Shown here: positions 6,779 to 34,748 of the stretch, piece by piece
How positions within the stretch are numbered: position 1 is the stretch's first letter
Layout of the letters: each line of letters opens with the position of its first letter
From: a virus
Virus record (IMG/VR): IMGVR_UViG_3300033146_001215
Location: 1-35,924 of that record
Length of the DNA: 35,924 nt
Strand: one strand, 5' to 3'
Notes under the pieces: model-generated
What the model was told of the DNA's origin: nothing
Seen by the model: the letters and a program-made list of their open reading frames with translations, nothing else
Databases searched by the model: none
Program-made: the position numbers and the translations under genes

Positions 6779-7333
6779 TTACTTTGTTTCTTCATCGCTT
6801 GTATCAGCATTTTCGCTGTTTCCTTTTTGCTCAGGAGTATCTTTTTTCTTAGCTCTAAGCTCAGCAATTTGAGATTTCAACTCAGCAACGCTGTGTCTTT
6901 TATCTAAATCAACACCAAACTCCTCCAAAGCAATAGCTTCCAAATCGTTTTTTTCTTCGGCTTCTAACAAGTCAGAGATATGCTCAGCAACTCTCTTTTT
7001 GTAATTTTTAGGATGTTTGCTAAAAGCACTTATCCTTTTAAAATTCTGATTGATAAATTGCATTGCAATATCATCAGTAAGATTTTTGTTAGTGTATGAC
7101 ATACCTTTAAATGTCAATACTCTATTATCCGCCAAAACAAACTCGTTAGTTTGCTTTTTTTCATCACTTTTTGCCATTTGTCTCGCTTTTATTTTGTTAA
7201 AATATGTTAGTAGTACTTTTTCGCACGATGTACCGTTAAACTCGCTAAAATGAGTTTTGATGAGTTTCAGGAACGCTTTTGTTAATTCAGCGTTCCTTTT
7301 AATCTCATTATAGGTTGTCGTAGTTAAGTCCAT
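6779..7333 (-). CDS. Unknown virion-region protein with C-terminal HeH/LEM-like segment
   Basis: 184 residues. The N-terminal half is helical. The middle (ADNRVLTFKGMSYTNKNLTDDIAMQFI) looks like a small beta-alpha unit. Near the C-terminus, FGVDLDKRHSVAELKSQIAEL resembles the HeH/LEM helix-extension-helix motif found on phage head and neck proteins, followed by a charged disordered tail rich in Glu, Lys and Asp. It follows the tail-tube-like gene and precedes an intrinsic terminator. The longer TTG start (7357) overlaps the upstream gene, and the ATG at 7333 sits 5 bases after that stop and was chosen. Confidence 0.6.
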   Translation of the reverse strand: MDLTTTTYNEIKRNAELTKAFLKLIKTHFSEFNGTSCEKVLLTYFNKIKARQMAKSDEKKQTNEFVLADNRVLTFKGMSYTNKNLTDDIAMQFINQNFKRISAFSKHPKNYKKRVAEHISDLLEAEEKNDLEAIALEEFGVDLDKRHSVAELKSQIAELRAKKKDTPEQKGNSENADTSDEETK

Positions 7334-7337
7334 AAGA

Positions 7338-7913
7338 TTACGCAACCAATCCCTCAATCATTGTTAAGGTTGTCTCATAGTCTGTGTCGAAAATCGTATA
7401 AGGTACGTTTGGTTCTTCTGCTCCATCATCTGATTTAAGCATAATACTAAGTACTCCTGAATTTTCGTTTGTGTTTCTTCCGCTATCTCCAAGTACAAGA
7501 CCGCTGTCAAGACCGTAAATCTCAAACTTTGTTTCGTTGTCTGCTCCTTTGTTCTCCAAAATCACACACACCTCAGCGTTTGTAAGCTCTTTTAATCGAG
7601 CTTTAACAGCATTGTTATAGTCTGTTACTTTTATATCAATAGTATGAGCCCAATAGTCCGAGCCAAACTCTTTCGATACATTTTTGTAATCACCACCAAG
7701 AGAGTTTTTCAACACTTCAAGGTTAAAAGCGTGATTTCCCATTTTCATCAAAAATGTTTTGATAATCAATGAATTTGTAGCATCAAAAACCAAACCAGCC
7801 TTATCAACATCATTAATATTCATCATCCAAGCTTTGGTTTTTACTCCTGCTATCGGTTGGTTATCGCAATCATTAAGAATGCCATCACTTATATTTCCGT
7901 TGCAATTTGCCAT
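7338..7913 (-). CDS. Probable major tail (tube) or abundant virion protein
   Basis: 191 residues. The Cys-containing N-terminus (MANCNGNISDGILNDCDNQP, then IAGVKTKAWMMN) followed by a beta-rich body is a pattern I associate with abundant structural proteins in Bacteroidota phages, usually called tail tube. The sections HTIDIKVTDYNN and VCVILENKGADNETKFEIYGLDSGLVLGD fit a tube beta-sandwich. It lies directly after the major capsid gene and shares the same A-rich leader (AAAATATAATAAG), which suggests high expression. It could instead be a head decoration or head completion protein. Confidence 0.5.
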   Translation of the reverse strand: MANCNGNISDGILNDCDNQPIAGVKTKAWMMNINDVDKAGLVFDATNSLIIKTFLMKMGNHAFNLEVLKNSLGGDYKNVSKEFGSDYWAHTIDIKVTDYNNAVKARLKELTNAEVCVILENKGADNETKFEIYGLDSGLVLGDSGRNTNENSGVLSIMLKSDDGAEEPNVPYTIFDTDYETTLTMIEGLVA

Positions 7914-18620: not shown

Positions 18621-19262
18621 TTACTTTCTTTTCTTCAAAATTATTTCATTTAAAGCACGTTCGTAATCTCTAAGGTCTTGATTTTTCAATCGTTTTGCAA
18701 TAACCTCTTTATACTTCCTTTCATAAGCTTCATCTATTGTAATATTCCAGCTTTGAGCAATATCCTCAGCAAGTATCATATTACTGTATCGGCTGAGGTT
18801 TTCAATTCCTGCTCGTGTTTCATCTGAGCTTACTGCATTCTTAAAATTCTTCTCCTCAAAAGCTTTGAGCCTTTCCATTTCTTTCTCAATAAAATTGTAT
18901 AAAGCAAATACTTCATAAATTGATTTTCTGCTAAGCTTTTTAAGGTTGATTTTACTCTCAGAATATATCTCAATTAGGTCCAGCAAATCAACTTTCTTTG
19001 TATCAATAGAGCTAAGAGCAATAATTGTACTCCATTTAAGCTCAAATATACTACTCAATATTACTTTCCGCTTGCGTGTCAGCTTTAATTCCTTTTTTGC
19101 GGTTGTGTATTTGCATAGAGTAAAATAATACGGCAAATCGCCTATTTTATCAATTTGATTATATTTGTAATTTTTGACCTTAAACTTAAATTTGATTGTT
19201 TCAAGGTATGATGTTACGATACGTCTCGAAAACCTTATAACTATATTTGTTCTTTGCTTCAT
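18621..19262 (-). CDS. Unknown protein after the large terminase, 213 aa
   Basis: 213 residues, strongly basic, mostly helical, no membrane segment. The C-terminal part (AEDIAQSWNITIDEAYERKYKEVIAKRL, about 170-197) recalls the 'iA...g.t.de...' helices of tail assembly chaperones, but no other evidence supports that. The start codon overlaps the terminase stop (ATGA). Position between terminase and HNH suggests a packaging or assembly helper. Function unknown. Confidence 0.55.
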   Translation of the reverse strand: MKQRTNIVIRFSRRIVTSYLETIKFKFKVKNYKYNQIDKIGDLPYYFTLCKYTTAKKELKLTRKRKVILSSIFELKWSTIIALSSIDTKKVDLLDLIEIYSESKINLKKLSRKSIYEVFALYNFIEKEMERLKAFEEKNFKNAVSSDETRAGIENLSRYSNMILAEDIAQSWNITIDEAYERKYKEVIAKRLKNQDLRDYERALNEIILKKRK

Positions 19263-20563
19263 CTTCTTACTGTTACCGATGCATAACTAATTGAATATTC
19301 AAAATACATTCGCATCATTAACGTATCTGAAAAGTCAGGAGAGTAACCAAGTATTTCTTTCATTTTATCTTTTGGTATTATCCTCCTTTTACCATCTTTG
19401 TCAATATCTTTTTGCTTGACAACTCCAAGCTCCTCAATTATCCTTTGAGTATGTTCCGTTTCGCATATTGTTACCTCACGGTTTGCAATCTTATCTGATA
19501 AAACGAAATAGCATTGACTTTTAAGGTTTGCATAATTCTCTCCATTCTTTGCAGAGCTACCGTTCACAAATCCTTTGCAACCTAAATAATCAACGACACC
19601 ACCACCGACACCATCATCATCTACAACAATTTTAAACAGCGGAACATTGTATCTATCCCTTATCAAGTTTACTCTATTGACAACCTCATTTACTTTGCTT
19701 GTTTCCATTGTATCAATAAGCACAACATCAAGACCATTCCATAACATTATAACAGTATAGTCAGAGCCTTTTCGTGCTACATCGCAACTGATATAATAGT
19801 CCTTTGTATCTTCATTTAGAGTGTAATCATCAAAGCAATACAGTATATCTTGATACTCAAACAGCTTTGCAATATCATCATCATACTCCCAGTTCCCATA
19901 CAGCAAGCGTTCCTTTTCTTTTGGTTTTAGCTTGTTAAGGTTGCGGATATAGTGTTTTGATATTTTTGGGTTGTCTGTTACCAATGAAGCAAGAAACTTC
20001 CTGTAATCTTTGATTGTGCCGTTTTTGTCAGGCTGATAAAACTCTCTATAAGTCCAATTCTTAGATGGGTTGCAAGTGTATAAGGTTTTTGGGATAAGAT
20101 TATTCTCATCAAGCTTGTATCTAATTCTACTACCTAAAATATCTTTTGCTTTTTCTGTTATCTGATTGGCTTCATCTACAAAAGCACCTGTGATTTCAAG
20201 TGAGCCTAAGTTGTCAAATTCAGGGTCTGATGGATAATAAAATAAATCTCTAAGAAATATCTCACTACCATTGAATAATTGAATAAGTCCTGATTGTCTG
20301 TTTAGTTTATAGTCAATATTGGCTCTCAATCCTTGCATTTTAGCCACTTCAAAGAATGTCCTTACAGTTGTGTCGTACAAAGATTTAAGCTTTGCTCTAC
20401 CTATTAGCCAGCGTGTTCCTTTGTATTTTAGAGCCATCTTTAAAATCCAAAACGAGCCGAGTACTGACTTGCCTCCGCCAGCACCACCACCGAATAAAAG
20501 CTCCTCAGTTGTACAATCTTCAAGATACCTTAATGCGACAGTTTGCTTATAGGTTAATTTCAT
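19259..20563 (-). CDS. terL: Terminase large subunit
   Basis: 434 residues, the packaging motor. ATPase domain: Walker A GGGAGGGKS (25-33), Walker B ITGAFVDEA (124-132, Asp130-Glu131). A coupling motif TCNPSKNW (163-170) lies after them. C-terminal nuclease domain, RNase H fold: DVARKGSD (Asp261, Asp268), VVDDDGVGGG (about 314-322) and SPDFSDTLMM (Asp410, Asp413) as likely metal ligands. All expected motifs are intact and in order, and length is normal. It starts directly after the small subunit stop and ends overlapping the next gene (ATGA). Confidence 0.96.
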   Translation of the reverse strand: MKLTYKQTVALRYLEDCTTEELLFGGGAGGGKSVLGSFWILKMALKYKGTRWLIGRAKLKSLYDTTVRTFFEVAKMQGLRANIDYKLNRQSGLIQLFNGSEIFLRDLFYYPSDPEFDNLGSLEITGAFVDEANQITEKAKDILGSRIRYKLDENNLIPKTLYTCNPSKNWTYREFYQPDKNGTIKDYRKFLASLVTDNPKISKHYIRNLNKLKPKEKERLLYGNWEYDDDIAKLFEYQDILYCFDDYTLNEDTKDYYISCDVARKGSDYTVIMLWNGLDVVLIDTMETSKVNEVVNRVNLIRDRYNVPLFKIVVDDDGVGGGVVDYLGCKGFVNGSSAKNGENYANLKSQCYFVLSDKIANREVTICETEHTQRIIEELGVVKQKDIDKDGKRRIIPKDKMKEILGYSPDFSDTLMMRMYFEYSISYASVTVRR

Positions 20564-20995
20564 TTATTCTTTATCTTTTACCTCATCAATATTATCAATA
20601 TCATTCTCAGGTTCGTAAGTTTTTTCCTCTATCCAATTTATAACCGTACCTGTATTTTCAACCTCCGTTTTTTCAACATAACCTCGTTTTTTCCCTTTGG
20701 TTTTTAAGTGAAATATCACGCTTGCAGTGTCAGGTCGCATCAGCCAGCCATCAAAGTTGCCATTTTTATCAAATTTTGGTATTCCTTTTCTTAAAACTCG
20801 GAGTGTTTCTTCGCTATCATCTAAATCAGCCTCCTGCAAATCTTCAACATCAATCTCAAACTGATTATCGTCCTCTATCCAAAGGTAAAAAGTACGTCTT
20901 GAAATGCCTATCGCGTTGCAAGTTTTACTGATGTTATAGTTCTTTTTCGGATATGTTTCTAAAAAGAGTGCTTTTTTTTGTGAAGTTTTGTGCAT
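20564..20995 (-). CDS. terS: Terminase small subunit
   Basis: 143 residues from the ATG at 20995 (a TTG at 21058 would add 21 basic residues). The first 45 residues carry a helix-turn-helix of the phage DNA-binding type: KKNYNISKTCNAIGISRRTFYLWIEDD (about 17-43). A helical segment follows, then a distinctive middle with PDTASVIFHLKTKGKKRGYVEK (about 88-109) and an acidic C-terminus that may contact the large subunit. Such proteins select the packaging site and are the usual partner immediately upstream of the large terminase, as here. Two 14-bp direct repeats flank its start codon. Confidence 0.82.
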   Translation of the reverse strand: MHKTSQKKALFLETYPKKNYNISKTCNAIGISRRTFYLWIEDDNQFEIDVEDLQEADLDDSEETLRVLRKGIPKFDKNGNFDGWLMRPDTASVIFHLKTKGKKRGYVEKTEVENTGTVINWIEEKTYEPENDIDNIDEVKDKE

Positions 20996-21008
20996 TTTGT
21001 GAAGTTTT
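20976..21008. repeat. Two 14-bp direct repeats at the small terminase start
   Basis: TTTTGTGAAGTTTT occurs at 20976-20989 and again at 20995-21008 (plus strand), separated by GTGCA, a 19-bp period. The start codon of the small terminase falls on the repeat boundary. Repeats within or beside the small terminase gene act as packaging or binding sites in several pac phages (e.g. SPP1), and could alternatively be an autoregulatory operator. No other copy was noticed in the window. Confidence 0.6.
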
Positions 21009-21080
21009 ATTTTTTTGTTTTCCCTGTGAGCCAACCTGACTAATTGTTTGTTTCCCAAAGAATTACAAAATCGGTTATTT

Positions 21081-21725
21081 TTACTTAATATTATACTTTT
21101 TCCTTAACAGAATTTGTTGTTTTGCCTCCCAAGCTTTTTTATACTCAACATTCTCAAAAAGCTTTGAAAATCCTGTAATATGTTTAAGTCTGACGAGTTC
21201 CTCTGCTTCCATACCAAGCTCATTGCAAATATCTTCATCTTTCCAGCCGTTATCAAGCATTGAATAAACCATCGAGGCCATACCATTAATTGAGTGTTTT
21301 CCTCTTGCTCTATTATGCCTCACGGTTGAAGCCATTCGGTCATTTATATCTTTATCGATAACAACAATCGGCAACTTTCCTTTGTTTCTTTCGAGAATAT
21401 CAGGATTGCTCAATGCCGTAAAGTATCTATGAAAACCATCTACGATAATATACTTATCAATTTTATCATCATAGATTGTTACAATCGGCTGAGTATATCC
21501 ATCGTGTTTTATTGAGGTATAAAGCAATTTCATTTCTACTTTTGCAACTGAGTTCGGATTGTAGTCATTTGCCTGTATTCTTTCGATAGGTTGCCAAAGT
21601 ACATTATCAATCGGTTGCTCTTTTAATGGAGAAACTTCATTGATTGCTTTCCTCAATTCAGATATTACTTTCAACTTATCATCTGAGCTATTAATAAGCT
21701 CCTGTATTTCTTTTGTTAATTTCAT
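21081..21725 (-). CDS. ParB-like protein paired with PAPS-reductase-like protein (IbrB-like)
   Basis: 214 residues. The ParB/Srx-type N-terminal domain spans about 40-145, with NPNSV near 56, GYTQPI (76-81), VDGFHRYFTAL (95-105, the ParB G-x-x-R motif region) and TVRHNRARGKH (134-144, the second conserved ParB block). A helical region with DICNELGMEAEELVRLKHITGF (165-186) could be a DNA-binding helix-turn-helix. It overlaps the upstream PAPS-reductase-like gene by 4 bases (ATGA), an arrangement known from E. coli IbrA/IbrB and many phages. Likely a nucleotide-binding or nuclease-like partner. Its exact reaction is not established. Confidence 0.82.
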   Translation of the reverse strand: MKLTKEIQELINSSDDKLKVISELRKAINEVSPLKEQPIDNVLWQPIERIQANDYNPNSVAKVEMKLLYTSIKHDGYTQPIVTIYDDKIDKYIIVDGFHRYFTALSNPDILERNKGKLPIVVIDKDINDRMASTVRHNRARGKHSINGMASMVYSMLDNGWKDEDICNELGMEAEELVRLKHITGFSKLFENVEYKKAWEAKQQILLRKKYNIK

Positions 21726-22897
21726 CTTTGATTATTTAATTCTTCCTCAATATAAGTGTTTCCGTTTTTATGCAACTCAGATAGTTTCATTTTACCTGTT
21801 TTCCATTTTTTATATTCGTTTACCTTTGGCGACCTCATAAAGTTGCCAATTTTAGTAAAGAAATAATCGTTTGTAAGTATGCTATTGATACAAACCTTAT
21901 CAAGAGCCATTGCAATACTTTTGCCTGTGTATATCTCATCTATCGCCTTGAATTTAGCTCTAAAAATATCACGTTTATCCTCCTTGATTAAATTCTCTAA
22001 TAAATGGTTGCGATACTCTCTCCAATCTTTAAACATAGGAGGTAATTCTTTTGGTATAAAAAACTGCTCTTTGTTTAATTGACCAGCCGTATTTATTCCA
22101 TCCATTCGTTTAACAATTCTGTTCCAAGTTTCAGGCTCTACCTCCTGCAAATAAAATAAATCATTTATTGCTGTTTCGTGATGGAAGTTTGATACTCTCA
22201 TTCGTTGAAGTTGCACACCATTTTGATACATCAAATCATACACTTTGCAATACTTAATATCATTATCGTAAATGTATTTCCAAATATCGGTATAACTCCA
22301 ATCATACAAAGGATAAAATGTATAATGACCGAGCTTTTCATTTAGCTTTTTTCCGTATGTGATATGCTTATACGTTGCCTGTGATGTTAGTCCGATGCTT
22401 CGTCTTGGACTTTCTTCTGCTCTTACTCCTGATAAATAGCAAGTTTTTTGTTCAGGATATGTTACCTCAACAAACTTAGTAAACATTTCGCCAAACCTGT
22501 CTGTTCCGTAAATGTTTTCTTTAATAGCAATATCATCTTTTTGATGTATCCATTTATCGCTTTCTTTTTTATCCCAGCAATATAACCAATCCTCAGTATG
22601 TGATGTTGCATTGAATAGCTTAATCGGTATCTGTAACCATAAAGGCTCGACACGTTCATCATACATAACTGAGCGAACATAATCAATTACCATCTGCCAC
22701 TCTGCCTCTTGGTCTAAAAACATAACTTTTAGAGGCAACCTGTTTCGTTTTTCTGCTATTTCAAGAGCCAAATTTAGAACTGCAGTACTGTCTTTACCTC
22801 CACTAAATCCGACAATAACATTATCAAACTCATCAAACAAATATTCTATTCGTTTAATTGCCTCTACATAAACATTAGTTTTTAGATAGTATCTCAT
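21722..22897 (-). CDS. PAPS-reductase-like PP-loop protein (IbrA-like, DUF3440 type)
   Basis: 391 residues. The N-terminal PP-loop is SGGKDST (32-38), which binds the phosphate of an adenylated intermediate. The second motif FLDQEAEW (60-67) and the CYLSGVRAEESPRR block (153-166) match the phosphoadenosine phosphosulfate reductase family (COG3969). It ends with a helical DUF3440-type region. Known relatives are E. coli IbrA (a transcription regulator) and the DndC sulfur-transfer protein of phosphorothioation. Here it is the core of a five-gene block with two methyltransferases and two ParB-like proteins, suggesting nucleobase or backbone modification, but the reaction is unproven. Overlaps both neighbours (ATGA). 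Confidence 0.86.
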   Translation of the reverse strand: MRYYLKTNVYVEAIKRIEYLFDEFDNVIVGFSGGKDSTAVLNLALEIAEKRNRLPLKVMFLDQEAEWQMVIDYVRSVMYDERVEPLWLQIPIKLFNATSHTEDWLYCWDKKESDKWIHQKDDIAIKENIYGTDRFGEMFTKFVEVTYPEQKTCYLSGVRAEESPRRSIGLTSQATYKHITYGKKLNEKLGHYTFYPLYDWSYTDIWKYIYDNDIKYCKVYDLMYQNGVQLQRMRVSNFHHETAINDLFYLQEVEPETWNRIVKRMDGINTAGQLNKEQFFIPKELPPMFKDWREYRNHLLENLIKEDKRDIFRAKFKAIDEIYTGKSIAMALDKVCINSILTNDYFFTKIGNFMRSPKVNEYKKWKTGKMKLSELHKNGNTYIEEELNNQR

Positions 22898-23520
22898 TTA
22901 CTTAACCTTTTTATTGTTTTATTTAATCGTGCCTCGTTTAACTCATTGCCGATAAACTTCATTCCGTTATCAATAGCTATCTGAGCAGTATATCCCATTC
23001 CACAGCAAGGGTCAATTATTGTTTTTCCTTTGCCAGCGAAAGGCTTCATTACTTGCACCAACGTATTGTAACCATAAGTATCAGTTACACTTTTGATATA
23101 GCTTTCCGATATGTTTATTTTACGCTTTCCGAACAGATGTAAGTCCAAAGGTCGAAGCTTTCCGCCTCCTTGATACCTGAGCTTTATTGTTCCGTTGTCA
23201 ACGAGGTTATGTTTTTTAGCGAGTGCCTTGATTTCATCGTGCCATTTTTCTCCATACTCAATAAAGATATGCTCCTTAACATACTTTTCAGCTATGCTAA
23301 AAATTTTATCTAAAAAGCTATCTAAATTTACATCGTTTGGATTGGCTCCTGTCATTTTCTTATTCATAGTTTGCCAATATTTCAAATTACCAACACCCCA
23401 AGGAGGGTCGCTATACATTACATCAACCATTTCACCCTGCATCAACTCATCAAAATCAGCAAGCATTAAATCAGAGTGCATTACTCTATGTATTCCGATA
23501 TTCTTAATTTTCTGTTTCAT
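22894..23520 (-). CDS. DNA N6-adenine or N4-cytosine methyltransferase (beta-type)
   Basis: 208 residues. The catalytic DPPW is at 38-41, and the S-adenosylmethionine-binding DPCCGMG is at 170-176 near the C-terminus. This order (catalytic motif first) is that of beta-class amino-methyltransferases, and DPPW indicates amino-group methylation. The protein is shorter than most and has little room for a separate target-recognition domain. It may methylate phage DNA within the cassette. Ends in the next gene's start (ATGA overlap). Confidence 0.85.
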   Translation of the reverse strand: MKQKIKNIGIHRVMHSDLMLADFDELMQGEMVDVMYSDPPWGVGNLKYWQTMNKKMTGANPNDVNLDSFLDKIFSIAEKYVKEHIFIEYGEKWHDEIKALAKKHNLVDNGTIKLRYQGGGKLRPLDLHLFGKRKINISESYIKSVTDTYGYNTLVQVMKPFAGKGKTIIDPCCGMGYTAQIAIDNGMKFIGNELNEARLNKTIKRLSK

Positions 23521-23522
23521 CG

Positions 23523-24311
23523 TTATTTATTTATAGTTACGATTGTATAATTACCAAATTCACGACCTGTTTTTTGAGCTGATACACGAATGTTTATTGT
23601 TTCATCAATATTCAATTCCGTATGTGTTATAGGAATATAAGTTTCATTGAAAAACATAAGATACATAACTCCATTTTCCGAGAGCATATCATTTAATTTA
23701 GTAATATCAGCTCTGTTAAAATAACTCGGAGAGCCGTACAATGAAATAATAGTATCAAACTGCTCAGTACTATAAAAATCTTCGGCTGAACAATTAACAA
23801 ATTCATTGTCAGGATAAAGCTGTTTAGCTTTGTTTATCATACCATCTGATATATCGAAGCCAATATACTTATCAGGTTTTATGTAGTCAAGAGCCAAGCC
23901 GAAACCACAGCCAGCATCCAAAACACTTCCCTGTATGTTGAGTTGTTCAAACAATTCCTTATCCTCCTGCACGTATTTAGGGTTTTCAAAGAATTTATAA
24001 TACTCATCAGTGATGTTGTCGTATTGTGAAGCGTAAACGGTTTTAGCTCTATTTAATATAATGGTATGCCATTTACCGTTTAAGTCGATAGGCTCTCCCA
24101 TAGTCCAATATAAATGACCATTTATGTTTAACCCGACATAGTTTCTACCTCCGTAATTGTAAACTTTGCCAAACCTCCTGATAAAGCCAACAAAATAAAT
24201 GAAATCATCATTATTATCCTTACTTCTCCTTATGTAAGAGTGAGGATTTGATGGCATCGTTTTAGCGAATATCCATTTGTTATTTTTTATTGTTTTGATT
24301 ATTCTTTTCAT
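23523..24311 (-). CDS. Class I methyltransferase with N-terminal phage-specific domain
   Basis: 262 residues. The N-terminal domain of about 90 residues (WIFAKTMPSNPHSYIRRSK ... LYWTMGEPIDL ... TIILNRA) is a conserved module I recognise from phage methyltransferase-like proteins. A class I Rossmann fold follows: SVLDAGCGFG (129-138) is motif I and IGFDISDGMINKA (150-162) motif II, then an acidic strand FVNCSAEDF. The acceptor cannot be read; DNA-modification context makes a nucleobase likely, but a protein or metabolite is possible. TAATG overlap with the previous gene. Confidence 0.8.
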   Translation of the reverse strand: MKRIIKTIKNNKWIFAKTMPSNPHSYIRRSKDNNDDFIYFVGFIRRFGKVYNYGGRNYVGLNINGHLYWTMGEPIDLNGKWHTIILNRAKTVYASQYDNITDEYYKFFENPKYVQEDKELFEQLNIQGSVLDAGCGFGLALDYIKPDKYIGFDISDGMINKAKQLYPDNEFVNCSAEDFYSTEQFDTIISLYGSPSYFNRADITKLNDMLSENGVMYLMFFNETYIPITHTELNIDETINIRVSAQKTGREFGNYTIVTINK

Positions 24312-24841
24312 TACTCATCAATTTCAAATTCCTCAAAACAGCGAGGACAAATTATTGTCTTTTTCTTCTTGATAACAGCCGACATTTCTTTTGCCTGCTC
24401 AGAAGCTTCAATCTCAGCCTTAGTTACTTCATTATCTCCCTGCTCAGGAGCAATGTTTGGTTTGTACTCAGGAGTATTAAAGTTATAATCTGACATATCA
24501 ATTCCAACATCTTCAAGTAATTCTGGAGTGTAATCTTTTACAAGTATATCATAGTCCCAAGTTCCGTGAGTGATGTTATCTGAAAGAATAAACTTTTGCT
24601 TTTCCTCCTCAGTAAGCTCGCTTGCATCTTTTACCCAGCTATCAGATATTTCTTTAACTCCCATTTCCTGCAAACAGATTAATCTTTTGTTCCCTCCAAG
24701 AACAATACCTGTTTTTTTATCATAAACGATAGGTCTGTACTCCATCATCTTAGGAAAATTCTCAATAGATTGTTTCAACAAATGTAAATCATCAAAAATT
24801 TGAGGATTATTCTCATTTACTTTTAGCTTATTTAATTTCAT
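24311..24841 (-). CDS. Second ParB-like protein with C-terminal zinc-knuckle-like end
   Basis: 176 residues. A compact ParB-like core covers about 1-92: MKLNKLKVNENNPQ, FPKMMEYRPIVYD (29-41), VLGGNKRLICLQEMG (47-61, ParB GxxR block) and KFILSDNITHGTWD (83-96). The C-terminus ends with CPRCFEEFEIDE, a Cys-x-x-Cys knuckle or zinc half-site. This differs clearly from the other ParB-like protein at 21081, so the cassette has two unlike ParB-type proteins at its two ends. Role probably in recognising or processing DNA for the modification enzymes. Overlaps the gene before by 14 bases. Confidence 0.75.
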   Translation of the reverse strand: MKLNKLKVNENNPQIFDDLHLLKQSIENFPKMMEYRPIVYDKKTGIVLGGNKRLICLQEMGVKEISDSWVKDASELTEEEKQKFILSDNITHGTWDYDILVKDYTPELLEDVGIDMSDYNFNTPEYKPNIAPEQGDNEVTKAEIEASEQAKEMSAVIKKKKTIICPRCFEEFEIDE

Positions 24842-25118
24842 TATCTATATTTATTAATTGTTTCAATATTTTATTTATTTCTTCGTAGTGTAAATAATCA
24901 ACAGTGTCCTGTTTCAGTATAAAAACGGCACGCTGACAAGCTTTTATGTGTCCTGATAGTATATTTGCCTGCAAATTATCCTGATACATTCTTAAAAACA
25001 ACCTCAGCAAGTTTAAGTTTTTTAAACTTTCTTCAAAATAAGCTTTTAAGATTTCTTGTTTTACTCTCCTGTCCTTACTTACAATCCACGTTTCGTATTT
25101 CTGTTTGTTCGATACCAT
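24828..25118 (-). CDS. Unknown helical protein, 96 aa
   Basis: 96 residues, almost wholly helical with spaced leucines (ILKAYFEESLKNLNLLRLFLRMYQDNLQANILS), no family I recognise. The gene begins after a GCCGAT...ATCGGC hairpin following SSB and overlaps the ParB-like gene, so it is translated with the modification block. It may be a small partner of the block or an unrelated early protein. Confidence 0.6.
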   Translation of the reverse strand: MVSNKQKYETWIVSKDRRVKQEILKAYFEESLKNLNLLRLFLRMYQDNLQANILSGHIKACQRAVFILKQDTVDYLHYEEINKILKQLINIDNEIK

Positions 25119-25133
25119 TTAGATACAATGAAA

Positions 25134-25151
25134 GCCGATAATTAAATCGGC
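25134..25151 (-). terminator. GC-rich hairpin after SSB, possible attenuator
   Basis: Minus strand: GCCGAT, loop TTAATT, ATCGGC, followed by TTTCATTG, a weak T-tract. It sits 26 bases after the SSB stop and 16 bases before the next start. It may be a partial terminator reducing transcription into the modification cassette, or an mRNA-stability hairpin. A strong terminator would need more uridines. Confidence 0.5.
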
Positions 25152-25177: not shown

Positions 25178-25558
25178 TTAAAAAGGTAAATCATCGCCCT
25201 CATCTGCTCCGTTATCCTCTATCGGAGGAGCTTGATTATTATTAGTTGCTTCACTTTCTGTTTTTTCGTTGCGAACCAACACATCATATTTACTCACAAT
25301 AATATTTGTGTAGTGTTTGCCATCGTGTTCAGAGTATTCAAGCTCTCCCTCAATAGTGATTAAATCTCCTTTGTTTATCTTTGGGTTGAACTTAGTCCAA
25401 ATCGTGCAATTATGCCAAGCGGTTTGAGTTTCCCACTCTTCATTTATTTTTATTCTTTTGTTCGTTGCAACTGAAAATTTACCAACTTTCATTTCATTCT
25501 TCAACTCTCTCAGGTCAATATCTTTTCCAACTCGACCAGCTAACATTACTTTGTTCAT
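25178..25558 (-). CDS. ssb: Single-stranded DNA-binding protein
   Basis: 126 residues with the bacterial SSB OB-fold: MNKVMLAGRVGKDIDLRELK, then VGKFSVATNKR, WHNCTIW, KGDLITIEGELEY and YTNIIVSKYDVL. The disordered linker ends in the acidic tip DEGDDLPF that docks partner proteins. Probable role: protecting and organising single strands for the ERF annealing protein and phage replication. Its ATGA overlaps the stop of the winged-helix-like gene. Normal length for a phage SSB. Confidence 0.96.
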   Translation of the reverse strand: MNKVMLAGRVGKDIDLRELKNEMKVGKFSVATNKRIKINEEWETQTAWHNCTIWTKFNPKINKGDLITIEGELEYSEHDGKHYTNIIVSKYDVLVRNEKTESEATNNNQAPPIEDNGADEGDDLPF

Positions 25559-27921: not shown

Positions 27922-28352
27922 TATCCGTTCACTAATTCAAAATGAGGCCTATCATCAAAAGATTGGTCAATCAATATTTTACCATCCATATCCCAGTTTC
28001 CTCCCCAGCGAATTTTATGAGTAATCAATCCCTGAGCAAAAAGCATAACTGCAACCGTATGAATAACTCCTGCAACGTATGTAAGATGTTCTTTCTCCCA
28101 TTTAGCTTTGCCATCATAAAAGATATAAATATCACTTGCTAAGCTCGGGAAAAAATTATGCTTCCCTTTGCGAGTAATTCCATCTATCTTGCTTTTGTTT
28201 TGCTTGAATAGTTTGTATTGCCTTTCAATACTTCGGTTGCCCTCAGCAATACCGAAATCAATATCCGATATTGCTATTGCTGTATTCATTATCAACTGTA
28301 AATCTTTATGACAAGTTGCTAATCTTCGTTTACTTGTTTTTCCAAACTCCAT
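27921..28352 (-). CDS. Endolysin, M15 (T5-type) L-alanyl-D-glutamate peptidase
   Basis: 143 residues. The M15 fold starts FGKTSKRRLATCHKDLQ, as in phage T5 endolysin. Zinc ligands are His65 and Asp74 in KHNFFPSLASDIYIF and His137 in RPHFELV, and catalytic acid candidate Asp133/Asp134 is just before it. GIAEGNRSIERQ (34-45) is the second conserved region. It would cut the peptide cross-bridge of peptidoglycan from inside the cell. No signal peptide, so a holin is needed. Oddly, it lies in the early unit between ERF and an unknown, far from the late lysis-like genes. TAATG overlap on both sides. Confidence 0.87.
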   Translation of the reverse strand: MEFGKTSKRRLATCHKDLQLIMNTAIAISDIDFGIAEGNRSIERQYKLFKQNKSKIDGITRKGKHNFFPSLASDIYIFYDGKAKWEKEHLTYVAGVIHTVAVMLFAQGLITHKIRWGGNWDMDGKILIDQSFDDRPHFELVNG

Positions 28353-29026
28353 TATTCAGGTAAATTTAACTGTTTATCAAACTCTTTTTCAAGCACGACT
28401 TTAACTTTTCCACTGATTTTGTAGTAAGTGTATAGGTCTTTTAAATTCATTCCCTTAGCAATGCTCTCCGCAACTACCAACGGCAATTTCTTATTATCGT
28501 TTAACCATTGTTTCGGTTTGCCATCAGGTCTGTTCTCAGATAATTCTTTCGAGCCGGTCTTTTGTTTTGGTGAGCTTTTTTTATCAGCACCTTTGCCATC
28601 AGTTCCATCGGTATCTGTTTCAGTGATTAAATCTAACATAACAGATATTGAATAACGTCTAAAATATGTTATCAATGAGCCGTATGCCTGAGCTTTATTC
28701 ATTCCCTCGAAGCCAAGAATAACCCATTGCTTATAAGGATTTCCCTTTTTATCAACTTTCTCAACTTCTACATGAACCAAATCATCTATTGGCAACATCA
28801 ATTTTTCAGTAAGAGTCGCATCACTATCCAAATGATGTAATGTAGTTATCATACTATCCTCCTCGATAACCTGAGTATAAATCAACTTATGTTTTTTTAA
28901 TATCGGAGTGATATTTTTTACAATTTGCTCCAAGCCTGCATACTTATATCCGTATCCGCTTGAATTTTCAACCATCGGCTCAACTTCACTTTTGAAGTTC
29001 ATTAATGCTTCTAATAATACTTTCAT
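28352..29026 (-). CDS. erf: ERF-type single-strand annealing protein
   Basis: 224 residues of the ERF superfamily. The conserved blocks are present: YGYKYAGLEQIVKNITPILKKHKLIYTQ (25-52), then a beta section, GMNKAQAYGSLITYFRRYSISVMLDL (about 118-143, the 'QaxGsxxTYxxRYxlxxll' signature), then an acidic linker with ETDTDGTDGKG. A helical C-terminus follows (MNLKDLYTYYKISGKVKVV). The role is recombination and annealing of phage DNA with SSB as partner. The leader ends AATAGAACG before the ATG, like the early leader. Confidence 0.93.
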   Translation of the reverse strand: MKVLLEALMNFKSEVEPMVENSSGYGYKYAGLEQIVKNITPILKKHKLIYTQVIEEDSMITTLHHLDSDATLTEKLMLPIDDLVHVEVEKVDKKGNPYKQWVILGFEGMNKAQAYGSLITYFRRYSISVMLDLITETDTDGTDGKGADKKSSPKQKTGSKELSENRPDGKPKQWLNDNKKLPLVVAESIAKGMNLKDLYTYYKISGKVKVVLEKEFDKQLNLPE

Positions 29027-33033: not shown

Positions 33034-33432
33034 CTAAATTGATTTATTAAAATCGTTAATTGTTATACTTCCTCTATTTAATTGAATAAGTAAATTTTTA
33101 CCTTTTTTCATTTCTCTTTTAGCAAAATCATCTAATACTTTTATCAATCTATTTCTTATCAATATGTGTATAATATCAACTACCTCAACGCTACATTTAT
33201 AGATTATAGCATCTTTACCATTAAAGCCTTCATTATACCAAAATAACTGATACTTTCCACAATTATAATCCACTCTGTTATCTGTGACTTCGCCAGTCTC
33301 AGTAAGTATTGATATTATTATATCGTATAACACAATAGCAATATCATTATCTATTTCTATACGTGAGCAAAATAATTTTTTGTCAGGTATAAAAATGTTC
33401 ACGCACTTAATTTTATTTTCTTTTACTTTCAC
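33034..33432 (-). CDS. Unknown early protein, 132 aa (start uncertain)
   Basis: 132 residues, with no ATG in its N-terminal part. The GTG at 33432 overlaps the helicase-loader gene by 20 bases. Another GTG at 33402 would start VNIFIPDKKLFCSRIEI after a clean gap and is about as likely. The body is mixed helix and strand, ends in a basic helix (KREMKKGKNLLIQLNRGSITINDFNKSI) and shows no family motif. Its place after the loader suggests a replication accessory role. Confidence 0.6.
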   Translation of the reverse strand: MKVKENKIKCVNIFIPDKKLFCSRIEIDNDIAIVLYDIIISILTETGEVTDNRVDYNCGKYQLFWYNEGFNGKDAIIYKCSVEVVDIIHILIRNRLIKVLDDFAKREMKKGKNLLIQLNRGSITINDFNKSI

Positions 33433-34099
33433 CTTTTACCTCGATAATATTAAACATTTCAATAAATCTATCAACCAATCTTTGTGAGTAATGTTTAGCC
33501 ATCAACTCAGGAGTTAAGTTTGTTGTTATGTGAGTTATTGCCCTTTTGCCAGCAAATAGCTCATACCTACGCATCAGAAACCGTTCAATATGTTCCTTTG
33601 CAGGACTTCCGTAGAATTTTATTTGGCTATCAAGCTCAGAGCCAAACTCATCAATACATAAATTAACGTGCTTCATATTATTCAGCTCTTTAAACTGCAA
33701 GTAAGTATCAAGCTGTTTCTTTTCAATACTGTTAATAAGCTCCTCAATACTTGCAATCCTGAATATATTTTTATCCTTTATGTTTATTCGCTGGATGTAT
33801 TTCTGTATGGCTCGCAGAAGGTACGATTTACCTGTTCCGTAATTACCAAATAAACAAATCCCTTTTGATAAATCGAGTTTGCATTCATTACCATTAAAAT
33901 ACTTAATCAACTCAATTACTAAATCGGTATTATTCTCATCAAAGATAAATTTTTCATCTTGCACGTTGGCAAAATACTCAACATTTGACCGCAAAGTTTT
34001 TTCGGTTGATACATCAAGTACAAAATTCATCATTTTTGCTTTTTTTATTTCAACGCTATTTAAAGCGTTTATATCAATTTTATTCATTTTGCTATACAT
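33413..34099 (-). CDS. DnaC-like helicase loader ATPase
   Basis: 228 residues, AAA+ ATPase of DnaC type. Walker A is GNYGTGKS (85-92), Walker B LCIDEFG (147-153), sensor TTNL (192-195), and the C-terminal QRLVDRFIEMFNIIEVKG (206-223) is the characteristic R-x-x-D-R end with an arginine finger. It would load the host replicative helicase onto phage DNA with the DUF6291-like protein just upstream. The TTG at 34111 overlaps the upstream gene; ATG at 34099 was chosen (34087 is an alternative). Confidence 0.92.
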   Translation of the reverse strand: MYSKMNKIDINALNSVEIKKAKMMNFVLDVSTEKTLRSNVEYFANVQDEKFIFDENNTDLVIELIKYFNGNECKLDLSKGICLFGNYGTGKSYLLRAIQKYIQRINIKDKNIFRIASIEELINSIEKKQLDTYLQFKELNNMKHVNLCIDEFGSELDSQIKFYGSPAKEHIERFLMRRYELFAGKRAITHITTNLTPELMAKHYSQRLVDRFIEMFNIIEVKGESKRK

Positions 34100-34100
34100 T

Positions 34101-34748
34101 TTACTGTTCAATTATATTAAATCTTTTACTCGTGGCCTCAGGGTCACTGTCGTTTAAGTTTCCTGTATCTACGGTTGCAGTATTTGAAAACTTAACTTTG
34201 TTTTTCGCCCAAGTATTTAATCTCCTCGATACATCAAAAGCATCTTGCTTTTCAAATCTCATTTTAGTTGCTTTTGGAGAATGTTCGCTCCAATATTCAA
34301 AAAACTCTTTCAGGTCAATATTTGATAATATTCTTTTTTCTTCATTAATTTTTCTAATAGCAATACTAAAATTATTTTTACGCTCATCAATTTTTTCTTT
34401 AAAAATCGGTTGCGTTTTTGTTTTATTGTTATTTACATTTACATTTACATTTACATTATCATTGTTATTAGCTTCTGACTTGCTTCTGTTTTGCTTATTT
34501 TCTGCTTCTGTTTTGCTTCCGTTTTGCTTCTTTTTCGGTTTGTTTCCGTTTTTAAATCGCTTATTGTTTGCATCAAGCTGAGGCTTAATTAATATAAATA
34601 TTGTTTTTGCAACTCCTGAAAGTTTTGGCTCTTTGAAATTCAATGAGTATTCACTTATCGCCCTGTATAATTCTAACTGAGCTTTGTCAGGTAGTTCGTT
34701 TATTGCTTCGTAAAAGCTCCTGTAAAAGATAAAACTATCTCTGTTCAT
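34101..34748 (-). CDS. DUF6291-like replication protein
   Basis: 215 residues. Residues 1-65 (MNRDSFIFYRSFYEAINELPDKAQLELYRAISEYSL ... AKTIFILIKPQLDANNKRFKNGNK) match DUF6291. A low-complexity linker of Lys/Asn/Ser follows, with four VN units encoded by a hexanucleotide repeat. The C-terminus has FKEFFEYWSEHSPKATKMRFEK...VSRRLNTWAKNK, the conserved ending of phage replication initiators that work with DnaC-type loaders. It is probably the phage initiator. ATG 34748 was chosen over TTG 34784, which overlaps the RadC gene. Confidence 0.8.
   Translation of the reverse strand: MNRDSFIFYRSFYEAINELPDKAQLELYRAISEYSLNFKEPKLSGVAKTIFILIKPQLDANNKRFKNGNKPKKKQNGSKTEAENKQNRSKSEANNNDNVNVNVNVNNNKTKTQPIFKEKIDERKNNFSIAIRKINEEKRILSNIDLKEFFEYWSEHSPKATKMRFEKQDAFDVSRRLNTWAKNKVKFSNTATVDTGNLNDSDPEATSKRFNIIEQ
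34431..34457. repeat. Hexanucleotide repeat (ATTTAC)n in replication protein gene
   Basis: ATTTAC repeated about 4.5 times on the plus strand, encoding alternating Asn-Val in the linker of the DUF6291-like protein. It keeps the frame, since six is a multiple of three, so length changes would only alter linker length. Confidence 0.85.

Follow-up and report, generated by a model that had tools for sequence, protein, structure and literature searches.

Which process is served by a run of five viral genes that encode two unlike ParB-type proteins, two methyltransferases and a PP-loop protein related to PAPS reductases, and that reads directly into the terminase genes? The genes lie in a window of 35,924 nucleotides, the whole stretch of viral DNA that was analysed (IMG/VR record IMGVR_UViG_3300033146_001215). 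The initial annotation suggested that they modify phage DNA, either by a sulfur-related reaction or by base methylation. Phage DNA hypermodification is a principal means of escaping restriction and CRISPR, and new chemistry of this kind continues to come to light. The analysis presented here makes it probable, with a likelihood of roughly 0.78, that the five genes represent one version of a modular cassette for in-situ DNA hypermodification in tailed phages.

Organization of the cassette and its proteins

The five genes are intact and occupy the minus strand from position 24841 to 21081, the order from 5' to 3' being ParB2, MT2, DMT, PAPS/DUF3440 and ParB1, followed by TerS and TerL. All open reading frames proposed initially are present and their close packing was confirmed, as the junctions across cassette and terminase genes are overlaps of 1–4 nt or gaps of 2–22 nt. 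The next downstream gene encodes the terminase small subunit TerS (20564–21058, minus strand; phrog_4044, 1.5e-7), next to the large subunit TerL (19259–20563, minus strand; phrog_2, 1e-29; Pfam Terminase_6N, 1e-10). At the other end, an ORF of 96 aa (24828–25118, minus strand) overlaps the ParB2 start by 14 nt; searches of Pfam, PHROGs, NCBIfam and PADLOC gave no significant match for it. Inside the operon, promoter-like matches were not more numerous than in shuffled sequence and five terminator-like matches were found with 2.7 expected.

ParB2 (24311–24841, minus strand, 176 aa) has a ParB/Srx fold with an intact GGNKR motif and an intact C-terminal CPRC zinc-ribbon half-site; CPxC is kept in 95% of its dereplicated relatives. 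It matches phrog_620 (1e-20) and the ParB-DNA methyltransferase fusion family phrog_498 (5e-19). The IbrB-like ParB1 (21081–21725, minus strand, 214 aa), a core gene, matches phrog_2159 at 7e-74 and carries the intact motifs DGFHRY (DGFHR) and TxRHNRARGxHS (RHNRARG). It has 361 viral relatives, the best 80 of which are mostly 63–76% identical. The two proteins were told apart by motif because iterated profiles of both cross-match. ParB1 is adjacent to the second core gene, with a 4-nt overlap, which encodes the IbrA-like PP-loop protein (PAPS; 21722–22897, minus strand, 391 aa). In this protein a PAPS-reductase domain with an intact SGGKDST motif is followed by DUF3440 (Pfam PAPS_reduct, 4e-17; DUF3440, 8e-11; both above cut-off) and it matches phrog_2302 at 4.6e-90. 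The relation to IbrA/IbrB recognized in the initial annotation is thus borne out by both family matches and by DUF3440.

The remaining two genes occupy a position that is termed slot X in the following. MT2 (23523–24311, minus strand, 262 aa) is a class I SAM methyltransferase with an intact motif I, DAGCGFG (Pfam Methyltransf_25, 4e-10), fused to an N-terminal domain, MT2N (23976–24311, minus strand). The methyltransferase with a phage-type N-terminal domain was described correctly at first, with the refinement that MT2N is a standalone gene of about 90–100 aa in most relatives. An alignment of 23 sequences (A1) defines its motif as FAKTMPxxPHxYT...YKYWTMGxP...INR; A1 was too diverse for scanning the collection and a subset (A2) worked. 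The predicted fold of MT2N (pLDDT 79.6) had no match in the PDB at E≤0.001. By tblastn, MT2N was found in none of the isolated-phage records and a profile search detected it in phage Hendrix. DMT (22894–23520, minus strand, 208 aa) is of minimal size and matches Pfam N6_N4_Mtase (1e-6, above cut-off), phrog_67 (1e-10) and phrog_498. Its DPPW (motif IV) at residue 38 precedes DPCCGMG (motif I) at residue 170, an arrangement that classifies it, as judged from its motifs, as an N6/N4-type DNA methyltransferase of beta-order. The PP-loop, DPPW and ParB assignments therefore stand, with intact motifs and family matches far above chance.

A recurring cassette with an exchangeable slot

Homologues of the five genes that never co-occur would, according to the initial annotation, have counted against the proposal. 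Such a result is itself refuted: the same cassette was recovered with PAPS, MT2N and ParB1 as three independent anchors, the common order being ParB2 - MT2N - X - PAPS - ParB1 - (TerS) - TerL. In the viral scan anchored on MT2N, PAPS was present in 73 of 80 loci. Among the dereplicated ParB1-anchored loci with full flanks, PAPS lies upstream in 31/31, TerL downstream in 29/31 and a tailoring enzyme is found in 28/31; in the pooled PAPS and MT2N scans, a tailoring enzyme is present in 40 of the 41 dereplicated PAPS-carrying loci for which both flanks are available. Slot X contains DNA methyltransferases, class I methyltransferases, GNAT acetyltransferases (Pfam Acetyltransf_1, 8e-11 and 7e-15), glycosyltransferases including a glucosyltransferase-like protein (phrog_854, 2e-11), and a cupin-type protein with an HxD...H motif, which is by a weak match a putative dioxygenase. 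The labels 2OG-like and GT are based on motifs and on weak Pfam and PHROG matches, and profile searches of both families against PDB sequences yielded nothing useful. The two methyltransferases, regarded initially as fixed members, hence fill an exchangeable slot. On the basis of these sequence comparisons, the five genes are one instance of a widespread modular cassette with a fixed core and interchangeable decorating enzymes.

The exchange is visible between close relatives. Phages with flanks 97–98% identical carry different MT2N/X blocks, and the break coincides with the start codon of PAPS. L049 and L020 show 97–98% nucleotide identity on either side of a block that is DMT-DMT in one and GT-2OG in the other, and the alignment picks up again 6 nt before the PAPS start. 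In L028 and L032, PAPS (99.5%), ParB1 (99%), TerL (98.6%) and ParB2 (98.4%) are almost identical, whereas MT2N is 52% identical and the slot genes belong to unrelated families. Assembly chimeras are an unlikely cause of these swaps, since every junction type recurs in several assemblies; the two block types come from three and six separate assemblies.

Known DNA-modification genes at the same site

Some relatives found by their TerL carry other modification genes just upstream of TerS-TerL: ParB with TAGT and TET/JBP (L155), GTP cyclohydrolase/QueD/QueE/TGT (L153), a ParB-N6/N4 methyltransferase fusion (L157) or ParB with a C5 methyltransferase (L161). Several of these sites also carry a homologue of ParB2, which in the window is 39% identical to the ParB of L155 and to the ParB part of the L157 fusion. 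The core pair PAPS and ParB1 is absent from 25 of the 26 terminase relatives; the exception (L158) encodes ParB1 and ParB2 at the edge of its contig, and PAPS was shown by 0/26. According to the terminase-anchored scan, the cassette is thus not a constant feature of this terminase lineage; with 25/26 of these relatives lacking PAPS and ParB1, it is accessory.

Proposed function and alternative explanations

In-situ DNA hypermodification is strongly favored because the genes co-occur, blocks are swapped and known modification genes occupy the same site. In content and order, as read from the compared genomes, the cassette combines a candidate initiating enzyme, exchangeable tailoring enzymes and interchange with known DNA-modification modules, which is the general pattern of hypermodification cassettes. 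Slot contents and swapping by themselves do not identify the substrate, which we infer to be DNA.

The core would comprise the PP-loop enzyme, its partner ParB1, the second ParB and MT2N. Speculatively, the PP-loop enzyme would adenylate a base position in phage DNA at the expense of ATP so that a substituent can be installed, a nitrogen- or alcohol-bearing group being more likely than sulfur. ParB1 and ParB2 may, in an NTP-dependent manner, load onto DNA or target to it the small enzymes, which lack target-recognition domains, and MT2N may link the tailoring enzymes with the core. The slot X enzymes would decorate the new group, here by the MT2N-fused class I methyltransferase and the DNA-type methyltransferase, in other phages by acetylation, glycosylation and possibly hydroxylation. 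Both ahead of packaging and while it proceeds, the finished mark would probably protect phage DNA against nucleases of the host, serving an anti-restriction purpose. A marking of the DNA for packaging, as suggested initially, is conceivable from the position of the genes beside the terminase.

A first alternative is that the PP-loop protein moves sulfur to the DNA backbone or to a base, like DndC or TtcA, yielding phosphorothioate or a thiobase. The protein shows weak similarity to DndC families (NCBIfam, 6e-10; PADLOC, 3e-11), and DndB is also a ParB-fold protein (PMC10853773). However, the DndC profile scores 38.7 bits with a cut-off of 290 (NCBIfam), none of the window proteins scanned reaches an equivalog-level score for DndC or SspD, and DndB, DndD, DndE and SspB gave no match among 16 window proteins, cassette included and covering part of the ORFs, compared with PADLOC. 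The 54 aligned PAPS proteins have no conserved DndC-like cysteine cluster: Cys107 is the sole common cysteine (83%), CxxC is present in 2/54 and the CysH catalytic motif ECGxH (ECG[LIV]H) in 0/54, the window protein included. The closest solved folds to the predicted structure (pLDDT 90.2) are the PAPS domain of FAD synthase, CysH, CysD and TilS (Foldseek, 7e-4 for TilS). DndC- or CysH-type sulfur transfer was therefore dropped as leading idea and is regarded as unlikely; the DNA-modification role proposed initially is supported, its sulfur reading weakened.

Similarly improbable is a role as transcriptional co-activator, in which the methyltransferases would act epigenetically on late promoters and the DNA mark would be regulatory instead of protective. 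PAPS and ParB1 have relatives, about 32% identical in the case of PAPS, that carry the annotation IbrA/IbrB with the description "co-activator of prophage gene expression", and the cassette adjoins late genes. Yet swaps of methyl-, acetyl- and glycosyltransferases on a fixed core are more in keeping with evasion than with a fixed regulatory site, and the relatives with TET/TAGT and 7-deazaguanine genes at the same site also argue against regulation. A loose grouping of orphan DNA methyltransferases and ParB-like proteins that act independently and share no pathway would fit the varying methyltransferases and the few loci in which none was detected, but is very improbable given the fixed order, the pairing of PAPS with ParB1 in nearly all loci, and the limits of the block exchange, which are set by MT2N and the PAPS start. 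Sulfur-assimilation auxiliary metabolism with unrelated neighbouring genes, suggested by the PAPS-reductase domain match and by viromics papers in which cysH of phages is counted among the sulfur-cycle genes (PMC9301287), is the least probable reading given the missing catalytic motif and the constant company of ParB1 and tailoring enzymes.

Returning to in-situ hypermodification, we tentatively propose a chemically new class. A cysteine-poor PP-loop enzyme, two ParBs and MT2N would put a reactive substituent on DNA bases, and a single recombination slot would let phages vary the end product through the exchange of methyl-, acetyl-, glycosyl- and oxygenase blocks. If true, this would reveal bases of a family that has so far escaped description, and some of the genes in the viral "cysH" pool would encode DNA-modification machinery and not serve sulfur metabolism. 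The cassette is common, as the number of viral ParB1 relatives indicates, with a conserved core and visibly exchangeable tailoring blocks. Relatives occur in the cultured phages Hendrix, with a full cassette, Obutu, Wheelbite, RHph_I4 and 031MP002. The Microbacterium phage Hendrix carries GT, an MT2N-MTase, an acyltransferase and PAPS, the Mycobacterium phage Obutu carries ParB, PAPS and ParB, and Wheelbite is an Arthrobacter phage. As cultured phages with harmless laboratory hosts are among the carriers, the product is directly measurable.

Comparison with known systems

In agreement with the initial impression, the literature that could be searched holds no description of this combination. 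ParABS partition systems have ParA next to ParB, whereas no ParA ATPase was matched among the scanned cassette and flanking genes (Pfam, PHROGs). Dnd, Ssp and type-4 BREX phosphorothioate systems likewise use a PP-loop enzyme of the PAPS superfamily, and Dnd also has the ParB-fold DndB; the window differs in the lack of the cysteine cluster and of matches to the partners DndD/DndE and SspB/SspC among the scanned proteins. Amine-transferring PP-loop enzymes of the TilS type have the fold in common and need no catalytic cysteine, but act on tRNA, and the window protein is nearer in fold to FAD synthase and CysH. Iyer and colleagues are said to have predicted lysidine-like pyrimidines in phage DNA (in NAR, in 2013).

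The IbrA/IbrB pair of E. coli and prophages (phrog_2302 and phrog_2159) likewise consists of an adjacent PAPS/DUF3440 PP-loop protein and a ParB, the PP-loop proteins being homologous at about 30–40% identity. The window pair belongs to a cassette beside the terminase that also includes ParB2, MT2N and tailoring enzymes; the pairs of E. coli and Streptococcus are without these components. In E. coli PhiR5_2 and S. thermophilus CHPC1062 the pair may have another job because no tailoring gene is adjacent. ParB2 and DMT match the two parts of phage ParB-DNA methyltransferase fusions (phrog_498; PNAS 2025, PMC12704722), but are separate genes in the window and are accompanied by PAPS, ParB1 and MT2N. 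Finally, the TET/JBP and TAGT cassettes for cytosine hypermodification also combine an in-situ modifying enzyme with a group-transferring tailoring enzyme, and in L155 they occupy the site of the window cassette together with a homologous ParB; neither was matched among the window cassette proteins, where the initiating enzyme would instead be a PP-loop ATPase.

Gene content and conservation of the cassette

The window is a complete virus record from IMG/VR, 35,924 bases long, in which five closely packed minus-strand genes read into TerS (21058-20564) and then TerL (20563-19259), the terminase genes on the same strand. These are ParB2 (24841-24311), MT2 (24311-23523) with an N-terminal domain of about 105 aa (MT2N) and a class I methyltransferase, the beta-order DPPW methyltransferase DMT (23520-22894), PAPS with a PP-loop PAPS-reductase domain and DUF3440 (22897-21722), and ParB1 (21725-21081). 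Profiles from Pfam, PHROG, NCBIfam and PADLOC gave these assignments, and the motifs are undamaged; the series running into the terminase proposed in the initial annotation is real. One half of phrog_498, a family of ParB-DNA-methyltransferase fusions, is matched by ParB2 and the other by DMT. The count of promoter-like sites across the cassette region did not exceed that in shuffled sequences. An ORF of 96 aa (24828-25118) without significant family match overlaps the ParB2 start by 14 nt, and a terminator-like hairpin on the minus strand (25134-25151) between this ORF and the SSB gene could divide the cassette operon from the upstream genes. The latter include replication and recombination genes for a DnaC-like helicase loader, an Erf-like annealing protein and SSB (33413-34111, 28352-29026, 25178-25558).

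A scan anchored on PAPS returned 44 viral loci, in nearly all of which ParB1 adjoins PAPS, with ParB2, MT2N and other enzymes upstream. In most of them MT2N is a small gene of its own (motif FAKTMPxxPHxYT...YKYWTMGxP...INR). Since MT2N is unrelated to PAPS it serves as an independent anchor, and PAPS was present in 73 of the 80 best viral loci found with it. After pooling the PAPS-carrying loci of both scans and dereplication at 95% PAPS identity, ParB1 lies downstream in 45/49, TerL within 3.5 kb in 34/49, MT2N nearby in 43/53 and a ParB2-type protein upstream in 40/53 loci; one or more tailoring enzymes accompany PAPS in 40/41. With ParB1 as third anchor, 361 viral relatives were detected. 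Of the 31 dereplicated loci whose flanks are complete, all have PAPS upstream, 29 have TerL downstream, 26 have MT2N and 28 have a tailoring enzyme. Co-occurrence was recovered from each anchor. PAPS relatives are found in 215 of 50,697 phage records. MT2N also occurs, either by itself or as a fusion with a class I methyltransferase, in apparently chromosomal MAG contigs (L120, L124, L130-L135) of Campylobacteraceae, Prevotellaceae, Thermoguttaceae and Planctomycetia, none of which has PAPS or ParB near MT2N.

An exchangeable slot for tailoring enzymes

The genes near MT2N and PAPS belong to few families: N6/N4-type DNA methyltransferases, class I methyltransferases, GNAT acetyltransferases (Pfam 8e-11 and 7e-15) and glucosyltransferase-like proteins (phrog_854). 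A further DxD-bearing family tentatively resembles glycosyltransferases (GT), and an HxD...H protein might belong to the 2OG-Fe(II) or cupin enzymes (just 0.03 with Pfam Cupin_2). Loci L049 and L020 are 97-98% identical over flanks of 4.3 and 4.8 kb; between these lies an 85% stretch covering ParB2 and most of MT2N, followed in one phage by 1,260 bases with two DMT genes and in its counterpart by 1,105 bases with a GT and a 2OG-like gene, and the alignment resumes 6 nt upstream of the PAPS start codon. Similarly, L028 and L032 share 99.5% identity in PAPS, 99.0% in ParB1, 98.6% in TerL and 98.4% in ParB2, but just 52% in MT2N, and their slot genes come from unrelated families. Chimeric assemblies, which could mimic such swaps, are unlikely because DMT-DMT blocks recur in three and GT-2OG blocks in six assemblies. 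The five-gene set of the initial annotation holds as a cassette, but its methyltransferases are replaceable rather than fixed.

Judged by sequence identity, MT2N tends to go with the slot type: it is 95% identical between the two DMT-DMT phages and 64-97% among GT-2OG phages, compared with 47-55% across the two types. This does not hold for the GT-GNAT phage L048, whose MT2N is 76-78% like the DMT type. A coupling role of MT2N would fit its fusion to a tailoring methyltransferase in the window.

Chemistry of the PP-loop protein

A sulfur-related modification, as initially suggested, found no support. SGGKDS is kept in 52 of 54 PAPS proteins, the CysH motif ECGxH in none and CxxC in two; most have Cys107 (83%), and there is no conserved cysteine cluster across the 54. 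In fold, the AlphaFold model (pLDDT 90.2) comes closest to the FAD synthase PAPS domain, followed by CysH and CysD, with TilS, LarE and NcsA as weaker neighbours. DndC-like sulfur insertion is thereby disfavoured, leaving an adenylating enzyme as the reading for PAPS, which would open the way for a non-sulfur substitution. For a GNAT or GT enzyme the acceptor has to be an amine or hydroxyl. As several cassettes (L048, L100) combine GT and GNAT without an oxygenase, this acceptor probably comes from the core enzymes.

Module turnover upstream of the terminase

The window TerL is up to 58% identical to its relatives. The cassette is missing from most of these relatives: PAPS is seen in none of the 26 loci, and ParB1 together with ParB2 just in L158, which is truncated by a contig edge; L012, found via PAPS, carries the cassette (TerL 53%). 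Some terminase relatives have other DNA-modification genes directly before TerS-TerL: L155 has ParB, TAGT (PF20691 1.5e-11) and TET/JBP (PF12851 7e-11); L153 has GTP cyclohydrolase I (5e-62), QueD (1.7e-19), QueE (3.7e-30) and a protein of the queuine transglycosylase family (2e-24); L157 has a ParB-N6/N4 methyltransferase fusion; and L161 has ParB with a C5 methyltransferase (2e-48). L154, a near sibling of L155 and L157, has no DNA-modification genes there. The ParBs of L155 and L157 are 39% identical to the window ParB2. DNA-modification modules thus turn over at this site, and several kinds of them have ParB2 as a common partner. In L155, the protein at 6862-7638 next to TAGT matches both PHROG 6059, labelled queuine tRNA-ribosyltransferase (1.5e-53), and Pfam TET/JBP (7e-11); the PHROG label may be wrong.

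Cultured relatives and comparison with known systems

DNA modification as the role of the cassette, also proposed initially, is well supported by gene context. Cultured phages carry relatives, and the identity of the base made is therefore answerable. Microbacterium phage Hendrix has GT, MT2N-methyltransferase, acyltransferase and PAPS at one record end and three ParB genes followed by TerL at the other. The order is ParB, two small ORFs, PAPS, ParB and TerL in Mycobacterium phage Obutu; ParB, PAPS, ParB, methyltransferase, HTH and TerL in Arthrobacter phage Wheelbite; ParB, DNA methyltransferase, IbrA and IbrB in Rhizobium phage RHph_I4; and ParB, PAPS, methyltransferase, two ORFs and ParB in Bacillus phage 031MP002. 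Recognised tailoring genes are absent at the IbrA-IbrB pair of E. coli phage PhiR5_2 and S. thermophilus phage CHPC1062. Some Flavobacterium and Streptococcus phages encode a protein of some 400 aa directly ahead of this pair (L002 4145-5356; L138 3782-5017; L146 3194-4417), and that of FCL-2 matches Pfam SNF2-rel_dom (4e-9); together they possibly form a separate IbrAB-associated module. In Mycobacterium phage Gaia and Pseudoalteromonas phage XCL1123, PAPS is followed by a ParB1-type protein annotated as ectoine synthase/ParB multidomain protein (L139 5308-6207; L140 5320-6250).

Iyer et al. 2013 reportedly predicted lysidine-like bases in phage DNA, so PP-loop enzymes may already have been predicted to modify DNA. 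No published description of this cassette was found in the literature searched. Known systems with related components are the PAPS enzymes of Dnd and BREX (PMC10853773, PMC12839542) and the phage ParB-methyltransferase fusions, together with the varied NTP binding by ParB folds (PMC12704722).
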